From positions 1-64,000 of the forward strand of contig NZ_RCZH01000024.1 in assembly GCF_006438875.1 (NCBI RefSeq): a stretch of 64,000 nucleotides of DNA. Direction: 5' to 3'. Positions 22,408-25,788 of the stretch are shown here, piece after piece. Made by a program: the position numbers and the translations under genes. The notes beneath the pieces were generated by a model. That model was given only the letters and a program-made list of their open reading frames with translations. It made no database searches and was not told where the DNA came from. Source of the stretch: Flavobacterium pectinovorum (GTDB taxonomy: Bacteria > Bacteroidota > Bacteroidia > Flavobacteriales > Flavobacteriaceae). Each line of letters opens with the position of its first letter. The stretch's first letter is position 1.

Positions 22408-22962
22408 CTATTTTTTTACGCGTTCCTCATTTTGTTTCACAAAAGCATCCCAGCCGGTATAACTTTTTCCGGCAACGATTTTTCCAGAGTTGAAAAAGTG
22501 GCAAACTGCCGCTGCCAAACCATCTGTTGAATCGAGGTTTTTAGGTAATTCTTTTAAGCCTAAAAGCTGTTGAAGCATTTTGGCAACTTGTTCTTTGCTG
22601 GCATTTCCGTTTCCGGTAATCGCCATTTTTATCTTTTTTGGTTCATATTCTGTAATGGGAATATCTCTGGAAAGTCCCGCTGCCATTGCAACGCCTTGCG
22701 CGCGACCTAATTTCAGCATCGATTGTACATTTTTACCAAAGAAAGGCGCTTCAATCGCAATTTCGTCTGGATGATGTGTTTCGATTAACTCGATCGTACG
22801 TTCAAAAATGATCTTTAGTTTTTGGTAATGATTGTCGTATTTGGAAAGTTGCAATTCGTTCAATTGCAAAAATTCCATTTTTTTATTGATGACCTTAATC
22901 AATCCAAAACCCATAATCGTCGTTCCGGGGTCAATACCTAATATGATGCGTTCTTTTGTCAA
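22408..22962 (-). CDS. ruvC: Crossover junction endodeoxyribonuclease RuvC
   Basis: Holliday junction resolvase of 184 residues. Catalytic acids are Asp11 in GIDPGTTIMGFG, Glu71 in AIEAPFFGKN, and Asp144 and Asp147 in NLDSTDGLAAAVCH. Residues 77-95 (KNVQSMLKLGRAQGVAMAA) form the usual conserved helix. The start codon is TTG at 22960-22962, directly after the WG-repeat gene (five bases behind its stop). The first 23 bases, counted on this strand from TTG, also form the start of that neighbour, which indicates a duplication (see findings). It probably depends on the upstream gene's transcript. Confidence 0.95.
   Translation of the reverse strand: MTKERIILGIDPGTTIMGFGLIKVINKKMEFLQLNELQLSKYDNHYQKLKIIFERTIELIETHHPDEIAIEAPFFGKNVQSMLKLGRAQGVAMAAGLSRDIPITEYEPKKIKMAITGNGNASKEQVAKMLQQLLGLKELPKNLDSTDGLAAAVCHFFNSGKIVAGKSYTGWDAFVKQNEERVKK
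22940..22962 (-). repeat. 23 bp direct repeat, copy at the ruvC start
   Basis: On the minus strand this copy starts TTGACAAAAGAACGCATCAT and covers the first 23 bases of ruvC, start codon included. An exact second copy lies at 24712-24734, at the start of the WG-repeat gene. The two copies bracket a unit of 1772 bases. Confidence 0.9.
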
Positions 22963-22967
22963 TTTCT

Positions 22968-24734
22968 TTAATTTAAATAAGAGAATTTATCTTCCACTTC
23001 TTTCTTAGAGAGATTCGCTTTAATTATTTTGTTTTTATTGTCTACAATGAAATACTTTCCGTTTTTTAAAACATAAAATTCATTTGCGTTCCTATCTGGT
23101 ACAAAGGCTAAATCGCTGTATATTTTTTCATATTCAAAAGGAATTACATTTTTATTATGAATGGTTACGACGCCATATTTGCCATTTTTAGAGAGAATAA
23201 TTGTGTTGTCATCGTTGTAAAATAAAGAATCGTAGATAGCCGGAATGACAATTTTCCCTTCTTTAGTTATCAAGCCATTTTTATTGTTTTTGATTACAAA
23301 GTGATAATTCGAACCAGGACCATATTCTACCCAATTTGACATTTCACTATACTCAAAAGGAATAATTGTTCGTCCTAATCTGTCTATAACACCATATTTA
23401 TTATCTTTTTTTGCAATAAAACGATTTTTATCATAAAAACAAGGTGACAAATCCTGATAGTCAAATTTTAGAATTGATTTTAGATTTTTATCAATAATTC
23501 CAACAGTGTTATTCTTATTTATAATATAATAGTCTAAATCCTTCCATGTCGTTATTGATTCACATTCAATAGGATAAACAATTTTATTATCAGAGTTGAC
23601 TAAGCCAAATTTCTTTTTGAGTTTAACTATTGTATTTACTGTTCCGTTAAAATCCTGAATTTCATCATAAATAAAAGGAATTATTACTTTTCCTTCACCA
23701 TCAACTACACCGCATTGGTTTTTTAAATTCCGAATGATATAAACCCTTTTAACTGTATTTCCCAGACGACTAAAATCAAAAGTATAACCTTTTATTTTAT
23801 CGTAAATTTTGTTTCCATGTTTATCCAGTAAAGTGATATAATTTTTATTCTTTCCTTCAAAGATTTCAGATTCATGATAATCTTCTTCGGGATGTTCCAA
23901 AGTGTCATATTCAGGTTTAAGGATTTCTTTTCCAAATTCATTTATGATCCCATATTTATGATTTTTAGAAATAATTGCAATTCTATTTTGATTGAATTTT
24001 TCTCCTGAGTCATATTTTCCAAAAGGAATTGCTTCTTTTAAATTTTTATCTAAATATCCGGTTTGATCATTTTTTCGAACTAAAATTAATCCATTTTTCC
24101 AAAAAGTATCTCCCTCTATTCCTTTTAAATTAATATCGGTTAAAGCAATTTCATCGTATATAAAATCTGTTTTTTGTTTTCCAAAAGAATCATAGAAAGC
24201 CCATTTTTGATTTTTACACAAAATGACCAGACTGTCAAAAGTGGTATTGTGTGCATTTTGATAAATTATCGGAATTATTTCTTTCCCTTTTTTATTAATA
24301 AAACCTTGGAGATTTCTCTTTTTAACTAGTGCCAATCCTGTTTTTTGAAAATAACTCTCGTTGTCAAATTGAGTTGGAATTATAATTTCGCCATTTCTGT
24401 TAATATATCCGTATTTGTTGTTTTTCTTTGCAAAAGCTAGTTCTTCAGAAAAAATACCTAAAGCATCATACTCAAAAGGGATAACTATATTTTCATGAAT
24501 GTCAATATAACCATATTTAGTGCCTTTTTGTGCATAAATCATTCCTTTCTCATCAATTAGATTTAGAAATTTATATTTTCCTAAAGGGATAATAGAATTC
24601 CCTTTCTCATCATTATATCCCCAGGAATTTTCCCCCATGATTCTGATGTACAGTTTTGGTGAGTCAGTGTTAATCTTATTGCAAGCAGCCATCAGCAAAA
24701 GTAGAAAGTACAATATGATGCGTTCTTTTGTCAA
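22968..24734 (-). CDS. WG-repeat lipoprotein
   Basis: A 588-residue protein with about 13 WG repeats of the form KYGYIDxxGxxxIPxxYD; examples are NKYGYINRNGEIIIPTQF, NKYGVIDRLGRTIIPFEY and GKYGVVTIHNKNVIPFEY. The N-terminus MTKERIILYFLLLLMAACNK is a lipoprotein signal with Cys18. Its first eight residues are those of RuvC, coded by the same 23 bases. WG repeats are thought to form beta structures for binding, and no enzyme activity is known. The start is TTG; an in-frame stop lies 10 codons upstream, so no ATG alternative exists before the signal. It probably faces the periplasm or surface and is read together with ruvC. Confidence 0.85.
   Translation of the reverse strand: MTKERIILYFLLLLMAACNKINTDSPKLYIRIMGENSWGYNDEKGNSIIPLGKYKFLNLIDEKGMIYAQKGTKYGYIDIHENIVIPFEYDALGIFSEELAFAKKNNKYGYINRNGEIIIPTQFDNESYFQKTGLALVKKRNLQGFINKKGKEIIPIIYQNAHNTTFDSLVILCKNQKWAFYDSFGKQKTDFIYDEIALTDINLKGIEGDTFWKNGLILVRKNDQTGYLDKNLKEAIPFGKYDSGEKFNQNRIAIISKNHKYGIINEFGKEILKPEYDTLEHPEEDYHESEIFEGKNKNYITLLDKHGNKIYDKIKGYTFDFSRLGNTVKRVYIIRNLKNQCGVVDGEGKVIIPFIYDEIQDFNGTVNTIVKLKKKFGLVNSDNKIVYPIECESITTWKDLDYYIINKNNTVGIIDKNLKSILKFDYQDLSPCFYDKNRFIAKKDNKYGVIDRLGRTIIPFEYSEMSNWVEYGPGSNYHFVIKNNKNGLITKEGKIVIPAIYDSLFYNDDNTIILSKNGKYGVVTIHNKNVIPFEYEKIYSDLAFVPDRNANEFYVLKNGKYFIVDNKNKIIKANLSKKEVEDKFSYLN
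24712..24734 (-). repeat. 23 bp direct repeat, copy at the WG-repeat gene start
   Basis: Identical to 22940-22962 over 23 bases, including the TTG start codon. The sequences flanking the two copies differ apart from short chance matches, so the repeat is sharply bounded. Confidence 0.9.
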
Positions 24735-24810
24735 AGTTTTTGTTTCAAGTTTGAGGTTTCAAGTTTAGAAAATTAACTCATTTTCTAATTTTCTAATTGG
24801 CACATTTTCA

Positions 24811-24839
24811 TTGCCACATTTTGAAATTGATTACTTTTG
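24811..24839 (+). promoter_or_regulatory. Promoter of the LPG_synthase_TM gene, possibly leaderless
   Basis: TTG (24811-24813), 18 bases and TACTTTTG (24832-24839) fit the Bacteroidota promoter. The ATG at 24844 begins only five bases after the -7 element. Transcription would start at or near the A of the start codon, so the mRNA may have almost no leader. Confidence 0.55.
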
Positions 24840-24843
24840 CGGC

Positions 24844-25788
24844 ATGATTTCAATTCCTCACAAAGCTAAACAATTCCTAGTTCTTCTGGTCAAACTTTTG
24901 ATTGTAGGTGGTGCATTTTATTTTATTTATGATCAATTGGCGCACAACGACAAACTTGATTGGCAAAAGTTCCTCACATTGTTTCGTAAAAATCAATCGG
25001 TTTTAGGGATTGGGTTTATATTGCTTTTGAGTGTTTTGAACCGTTATTTTGAGATTTTGAAATGGCAGAATCTGGCTAAAGTTATTCATGAAATTTCTTT
25101 AGGCGAAGCTACAAAACAAGTTCTGGCAGCACTTACAGCGGGAATCTTCACGCCAAACGGAGTAGGCGAGTATGCTGGAAAAGCATTGTATTATCCCAAA
25201 TCTGAAGCTAAAAAAGTGGTTTTCCTAAACTTAATCTGCAACGGAATCCAGATGATTCTAACAGTGATTTTCGGAATTTTCGGATTGTTGTATTTCAATG
25301 CGCAACATGAAGTAATAACGGCACAAACGGTTACAATTTTATTCGGAGTTTTTGTGTTGCTTTTTGTTATTTTATTCTCTTTAAAGAAGATAAAAATCAA
25401 AGGATATTCAATCGAAAAATTGTTGCATAAGATCAATGAGATTTCAAAACCAATTCATCGTAAAAATATTCTTTTAGGGACTTTACGTTATTTGGTTTTC
25501 TCACATCAATATTATTTTTTGTTTTTGGCTTTTGATGTTGATTTACCTTATTTTACTTTGATTGCTACGATTGCAGTAGTTTACTTTTTAGCGTCATCAT
25601 TACCTACTTTCCAGTTTTTGGACTTTGCCGTAAAAGGAAGTGTTGCCATTTATTTCTTCGGAAAGTTAGGCGTAAACGAATGGATTGTGGTTTTTATAAG
25701 CACTTTAATGTGGTTTCTAAATGTGGTTTTACCAGTAATTATAGGGGCTTATTATGTGCTGAATTTTAAAACGAAAACAGTAGAATGA
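24844..25788 (+). CDS. Lysylphosphatidylglycerol synthase TM-region family protein
   Basis: A 314-residue inner membrane protein with about eight hydrophobic segments, in the LPG_synthase_TM (formerly UPF0104) group. I begin at ATG 24844 (MISIPHKAKQFLVLLVKLLI) because the longer frame from TTG 24811 would run through the promoter. Typical blocks are FTPNGVGEYAGKALYYPK (about 104-121) and FWNVVLP-like residues near the end. Relatives flip or transfer lipids, and members beside glycosyltransferases often take part in glycolipid handling. The following GT2 gene overlaps the stop by four bases, so the two act as a pair. Confidence 0.87.
   Translation: MISIPHKAKQFLVLLVKLLIVGGAFYFIYDQLAHNDKLDWQKFLTLFRKNQSVLGIGFILLLSVLNRYFEILKWQNLAKVIHEISLGEATKQVLAALTAGIFTPNGVGEYAGKALYYPKSEAKKVVFLNLICNGIQMILTVIFGIFGLLYFNAQHEVITAQTVTILFGVFVLLFVILFSLKKIKIKGYSIEKLLHKINEISKPIHRKNILLGTLRYLVFSHQYYFLFLAFDVDLPYFTLIATIAVVYFLASSLPTFQFLDFAVKGSVAIYFFGKLGVNEWIVVFISTLMWFLNVVLPVIIGAYYVLNFKTKTVE

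Follow-up and report, generated by a model that had tools for sequence, protein, structure and literature searches.

A WG-repeat lipoprotein gene recurs at the ruvC start in Flavobacterium, where the start sequence is often present twice

In some Flavobacterium species, a gene for a WG-repeat lipoprotein has been inserted at, or exactly lost from, the start of ruvC, and the ruvC start is often present twice where the gene is found. Filled loci carry about 1.77 kb that empty ones lack, located after the resident leader and the first ~23 bases, and those bases recur at the head of ruvC. The comparisons began with a 64,000-nucleotide stretch of Flavobacterium pectinovorum DNA (the window; NZ_RCZH01000024.1, positions 1 to 64,000). 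Judging from sequence comparisons, the WG gene is probably a single-gene insert at the ruvC locus of this genus, gained and lost among species through homologous recombination that has its anchor in ruvC, and settling behind the resident leader and start.

Positions 22940-22962 and 24712-24734 of the window are identical at 23 of 23 bases, with a start-to-start spacing of 1772 bases. Both copies read TTGACAAAAGAACGCATCATATT on the minus strand, and each opens an open reading frame (ORF), one encoding a WG protein of 588 aa and the other RuvC (184 aa). The locus is organized as follows:

24844-25788, plus strand: divergent LPG_synthase_TM gene, the left neighbor and flank marker, with ATG at 24844 and an earlier TTG at 24811 also listed (ORF list, Pfam)
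24735-24843, minus strand: resident ruvC leader, now before the WG gene, filling the gap to LPG_synthase_TM; aligns with the LPG-ruvC gap of the WG-less loci L054, L099, L101 and L105
24712-24734, minus strand: first copy of the 23-base ruvC start, forming WG codons 1-7 and two bases of codon 8 (MTKERIIL) (sequence comparison)
22968-24734, minus strand: WG-repeat lipoprotein gene, 588 aa, with cysteine 18 behind a hydrophobic stretch (ORF, Pfam, alignment, predicted fold)
22963-22967, minus strand: 5-base spacer from the WG stop to the ruvC start (sequence)
22940-22962, minus strand: second copy of the 23-base start, within ruvC (sequence comparison)
22408-22962, minus strand: ruvC, 184 aa, intact (ORF, Pfam)

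Direct comparison confirmed the original prediction on the layout: the identical 23 bases, their shared TTG start and their spacing, the eight residues MTKERIIL with which both proteins begin, and the 5 bases between the WG stop and the ruvC TTG. The WG gene matches the Pfam family WG_beta_rep (PF14903; E 2.3e-66; 219.8 bits against a cut-off of 25.6) and holds 7 WG stretches. The ruvC product matches PF02075 (E 1.4e-40; 139 bits) over profile positions 1-148 of 148, a full-length domain in a gene that is intact after the insert.

The 23-base identity of the two starts is not due to chance. We collected 272 first-start ORFs of at least 150 aa mechanically from both strands of 404 kb of the same genome. 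Two lie at distance 0 from the 23-mer, which we took to be WG and ruvC themselves, the next two lie at 7, and the remainder lie at 9 or more. The 14-mer GAACGCATYATATT occurs exactly twice in this assembly, both times at the WG and ruvC starts. Besides WG and ruvC, the only neighbors in the 404 kb that share at least 16 bases from a possible start are copies in one spot, at 273-274 kb of C12. Here, on the minus strand (273171-274323, counted on the reverse complement of the joined first 319900 bases), repeats spaced 384 and 768 bases apart have 34-55 bases in common from possible starts; these stretches are probably one repetitive gene.

We searched 398 genomes of Flavobacterium (genus by named records) for the WG gene and found matches in 18 at E 1e-40 or better. 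Apart from L040 and L041, the latter at a contig end, all of these loci (16 of 18) include ruvC, and WG-ruvC is therefore a recurring arrangement. A scan with one genome per species returned 52 WG loci, 18 of them with ruvC in the stretch fetched; the remaining loci, including those from Lacinutrix, Algoriphagus, Chryseobacterium and Clostridium and the contig-end-cut L156, have no ruvC in that stretch. The starts were compared in 20 loci where the 5′ end of WG could be read; the 398-genome search supplied 15 of them and the per-species scan 5 more. F. collinsii, whose locus is split over two contigs (L124/L036 and L156) and whose WG gene has an unrelated start, was excluded from the 20. In L037 another ORF lies between WG and ruvC; its WG copy (G167:C1:108104-109762) carries an internal TGA, with the 5′ end in a separate ORF, and is probably a decaying gene. 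Two 14-mers on one strand occur in 15 of the 398 genomes, 9 of them WG-bearing; we rejected the other 6 (G076, G083, G186, G284, G310 and G357) as further cases, since their copies sit on separate contigs or over 1 Mb from each other.

Comparison with WG-less species, a check proposed along with the original prediction, revealed the empty site. The LPG_synthase_TM-ruvC gap of these species contains a leader resembling that found before the WG gene in filled species, and close relatives have a single start copy behind it. Between L006 (HBTb2-11-1) and the empty locus L048 (genome G006), whose flanks differ by a dS of 0.14-0.22, 218 upstream bases and the 23 start bases are identical before the sequences split, and the second start copy of L006 agrees with the empty site over 35 bases. 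The empty-site sequence of the relative is thus present twice in the filled site; gain and exact loss are indistinguishable in any one such pair. G006 encodes other WG proteins, none matching the window WG protein at E 1e-40. Similarly, L121 and the empty locus L084 share a run of 30 identical bases, with a similarity of 0.98-1.0 across the last 200, and three further filled/empty pairs (L034/L082, L035/L100 and L142/L042) have the same leader with more changes. The empty loci nearest to the window are more distant (LPG dS 0.64-0.66), and the leader still aligns. The predicted insertion with duplication of the start holds in outline, with the resident leader and start before WG, a second copy behind it and one copy in relatives without WG. 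It does not hold as a single event in the window genome, since the pair is present in 20 compared loci from different species-level genomes.

Other sequences also vary at this site. The ruvC leaders of WG-less loci are of two very different filler types, a cttgaaac-type and a actttgtgaatctctgtg-type, which switch at the start codon (ATG or TTG). The LPG_synthase_TM-ruvC gap holds a DUF1003 gene (Pfam) in L051 and a similar ORF in L102 and L037, each with its own start. In L108 and L109 it holds an ORF of 193 aa and 190 aa, respectively, again with its own start; the L108 ORF has no Pfam match. Among the loci looked at, including L108, L109, L051 and L102, we saw no other gene with a ruvC-like start at the site.

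Across the 20 loci, 13 WG genes have a ruvC-like start, 5 an unrelated one, 1 an intermediate one, and 1 has only the leader and 8 bases in common. The first 23 bases of WG and ruvC are identical in seven loci (L001, L031, L004, L005, L006, L035 and L115), where the exact repeat spans 23-26 bases, or 30 counting an A run in L006. Six more show 1-4 differences of 23 (L034, L121, L007, L123, L003 and L039), L033 shows 7, and L142 (F. turcicum) shows 12, with the resident leader and first 8 bases common to it and the empty locus L042. The five unrelated starts (L002, L032, L113, L037 and L038) lie at distances of 9-12, within the background range. Aligning 12 ruvC-like WG genes, we found the first 7 codons nearly invariant and a drop in similarity at codons 8-9. 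The original prediction that WG takes over the ruvC translation start fits the 13 ruvC-like loci and fails for the five whose WG gene, in or close to the same position, begins with an unrelated start; the ruvC start is thus dispensable for WG. Those five are also what the original prediction had named as counter-evidence, an old pair with diverged starts; the insertion finding nevertheless stands, since duplication of the start is directly visible in the empty-site pairs.

Exact direct repeats at a fixed place would also be expected if a site-specific recombinase or transposon had placed WG, with the 23-mer as an att core or target duplication. We consider this very improbable: WG is the only ORF of at least 80 aa in the 1772-base unit, which holds no recombinase gene, and there is no constant att core, the exact stretch common to the two starts ranging from 14 to 26 bases among loci starting alike and F. 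turcicum having only 8 in common with its empty locus. Moreover, WG genes with unrelated starts occupy the same place without a repeat.

The five unrelated starts (5/20) would also fit a different history: a WG gene already upstream of ruvC, at first with a start of its own, into which gene conversion or a partial duplication of the ruvC 5′ end later brought the leader and start of ruvC. An uncommon T in both start copies of L004, which simple right-anchored insertion does not predict, likewise suggests homogenization. Against this, the window repeat covers 23 bases only, with the leader not repeated, and a close WG-less relative has the same leader directly before ruvC; we regard later acquisition of the start as improbable. 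Homology of the own-start leaders in L002 and L037, tried as proof of an ancestral own start, lacks significance, its score being reached in 175 of 1000 shuffles; only the L037/L038 comparison stands out, with 9 of 1000. An ATATT microhomology, considered by eye as the fusion point, was rejected, since fusion there would cost the signal one codon and no such loss is observed. Recombination at the site finds support in L007 and L123, where an ATG behind the other leader type opens start copy 1 and a TTG opens start copy 2. Counting against it, their exact starts (ATGAAACAAG and ATGACACAAG) were not seen in WG-less loci, where ATG starts read ATGACAAAAG or ATGGCAAACG.

The similarity of the two copies could also reflect selection. 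Across the 20 loci, codons 4-8 form the most conserved five-codon window of ruvC (0.94; the next separate window reaches 0.86, and the mean of 154 later conserved-residue codons is 0.64), so the start region is probably under constraint, or has a function, at the nucleotide level. In the window these codons correspond to 22939-22953 and are unusually conserved at synonymous positions. Such constraint may help keep two copies alike after one event and could alone keep them similar. It would accommodate one old, mostly vertical insertion, in which selection on the translation-initiation sequence holds the start copies alike and empty relatives have lost WG by exact recombination between the repeats. 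In keeping with this, GAACGCATYATATT is found in 228 of the 398 genomes (matches not all checked as ruvC), several WG pairs diverge like their flanks, and exact excision would yield perfect empty sites. Conversely, 6 of the 13 ruvC-like loci have start copies that are not identical, WG genes with unrelated starts fall within the same WG clade as those with ruvC-like starts, and the divergence of WG is far below that of its flanks in SLB02/bizetiae and, to a smaller degree, in sharifuzzamanii/IB48; start constraint does not explain the low WG divergence in the former pair. We therefore view a single old insertion as rather unlikely, and a mixture of constraint and renewed copying as likely.

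We compared synonymous divergence of WG with that of its flanks. In SLB02/bizetiae, WG has a dS of 0.031, against 0.400 for LPG, 0.257 for ruvC and 0.716 for hemN. WG is also the less diverged in sharifuzzamanii/IB48 (0.122 versus 0.427 and 0.261), in the window and ov086 (0.208 versus 0.378 and 0.461) and in L003/L033 (0.473 versus 0.934, 0.707 and 0.719). The values for L006/L034 (0.620, flanks 0.607 and 0.570), L034/L035 (0.487, flanks 0.386 and 0.498) and L001/L002 lie near those of the flanks, and several WG pairs would fit vertical descent. For quisquiliarum/phragmitis, WG (0.828) disagrees clearly only with LPG (0.369), the other flanks being ruvC (0.711) and hemN (0.593). With WG less diverged than its flanks in some pairs, most clearly SLB02/bizetiae, these values indicate that WG moves between species, in at least one pair. 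Both members of that clearest pair have unrelated WG starts, which counts against the reading preferred here. When mapped on a quickly built tree of the LPG gene (80 rows, of which 19 are filled), WG presence changes at least 14 times, with the direction of change not readable and LPG itself possibly recombining. Of the 77 inner branches of this tree, 26 are strongly supported, and its empty rows are pattern hits that favor large genomes and are not a random sample.

The WG genes are mosaics. We also followed similarity in 60-base bins. Between L034 and L007 the final two bins of the leader score 0.48 and 0.12 and those of WG 0.90-1.0, so that the shared tract begins at the WG start; leader turnover at the start codon in WG-less loci weakens this argument. 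Between L003 and L033 the final nine bins of WG score 0.87-1.0, the first of ruvC 0.95 and those after it 0.82-0.90, which places the end of the shared tract early in ruvC. These two pairs have tract ends close to the start copies, and they do not fix the position of the left crossover.

Taken with the duplicated start, these data are consistent with movement of WG by recombination anchored in ruvC. The right end would form by homology within ruvC, and the left end at or inside the short copy of the ruvC start, either through very short homology or through homology-facilitated illegitimate recombination. Only insertions that capture WG in frame with the ruvC start would survive. The first eight residues of RuvC are basic, then hydrophobic, so they can open a lipoprotein signal, and MTKERIIL would serve as the first part of that of WG. 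WG would use the transcription and translation start of ruvC, and ruvC, 5 bases behind it, would probably be translated by coupling. The start copy at the WG head could act as the left homology arm for the next transfer, and the two copies together as a site for exact excision. A fuller version, in which WG is a landing-pad cassette with a portable ruvC-start arm that spreads without a recombinase, settles behind a resident leader, restores ruvC while using the ruvC start as a signal peptide, and departs tracelessly through the repeats, is possible, and we advance it only tentatively.

The WG protein appears to be maintained: dN is below dS in 9 of 9 WG pairs computed, so the protein is under selection, and Cys18 is invariant in 14 aligned WG rows that include both start types. 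The predicted structure is all-beta (mean pLDDT 89, pTM 0.70). Its best matches in a fold search, with E down to 6e-13 and TM-scores near 0.2, are proteins that we take to be tandem beta-propellers; the search suggests the general fold only. A PDB sequence search gave no match at E 0.01, and a PADLOC search gave none. In four loci from Lacinutrix, Marixanthomonas and Maribacter (L131, 1080-2897; L133, 2037-3854; L134, 3441-5264; L136, 2502-4319), a distant WG gene lies in a ~1.8 kb unit with inverted copies of GTTAGCAACAAGGC at its ends (at most 2 mismatches), as if it were a single-gene cassette. The left GTTAGCAACAAGGC copy also precedes WG in L128, L132 and L140.

Overall, the ruvC locus offers a natural series, across many species, of how a gene that is not part of a mobile element can settle before a conserved housekeeping gene without breaking it. 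In one step the insert would gain a leader together with a start codon and the first part of its signal peptide, and it would stay transferable and removable. Small inserts of this kind at conserved genes, lacking an integrase and lying away from tRNA genes, may be easily overlooked.

Some mobile elements integrate at the 5′ end of a gene and restore it, as SXT does at prfC. The WG unit resembles them in that the beginning of the target gene is regenerated after insertion, and differs in having one gene only and no integrase. With its 7 WG stretches and predicted all-beta fold, the WG protein resembles the WG_beta_rep family (PF14903), whereas its genomic setting differs: the window subfamily mostly adjoins ruvC in Flavobacterium, and the distant relatives fetched do not. 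Among the open-access papers searched, none joined “WG repeat” with Flavobacterium or with ruvC. Insertion with long target duplication, as outlined for restriction-modification genes in Helicobacter (Nobusato et al. 2000; PMC1643837), likewise leaves a gene in one of two relatives with a direct repeat of the empty site at both ends. Relative to that outline, the WG repeat is short (23-26 bases) and not a long duplicated target, it lies exactly at the start codon and supplies the inserted gene with its N-terminus, and the cargo is a WG lipoprotein in place of restriction-modification genes. In homology-facilitated illegitimate recombination, as summarized in PMC3240628 and PMC5361080, one end is anchored by homology and the other is joined with little or no homology, adding new DNA; a conserved end has been proposed as an anchor for inserting new effector genes (PMC5361080). 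The WG case, read from sequence, may share the homologous anchor and the other joint with little or no homology; unlike in those summaries, the end without the anchor would be joined at the same spot time after time, in frame with a start. What sets the WG case apart from target duplication and from homology-facilitated illegitimate recombination is the short repeat, its exact place at the start codon and its reuse as a new N-terminus.
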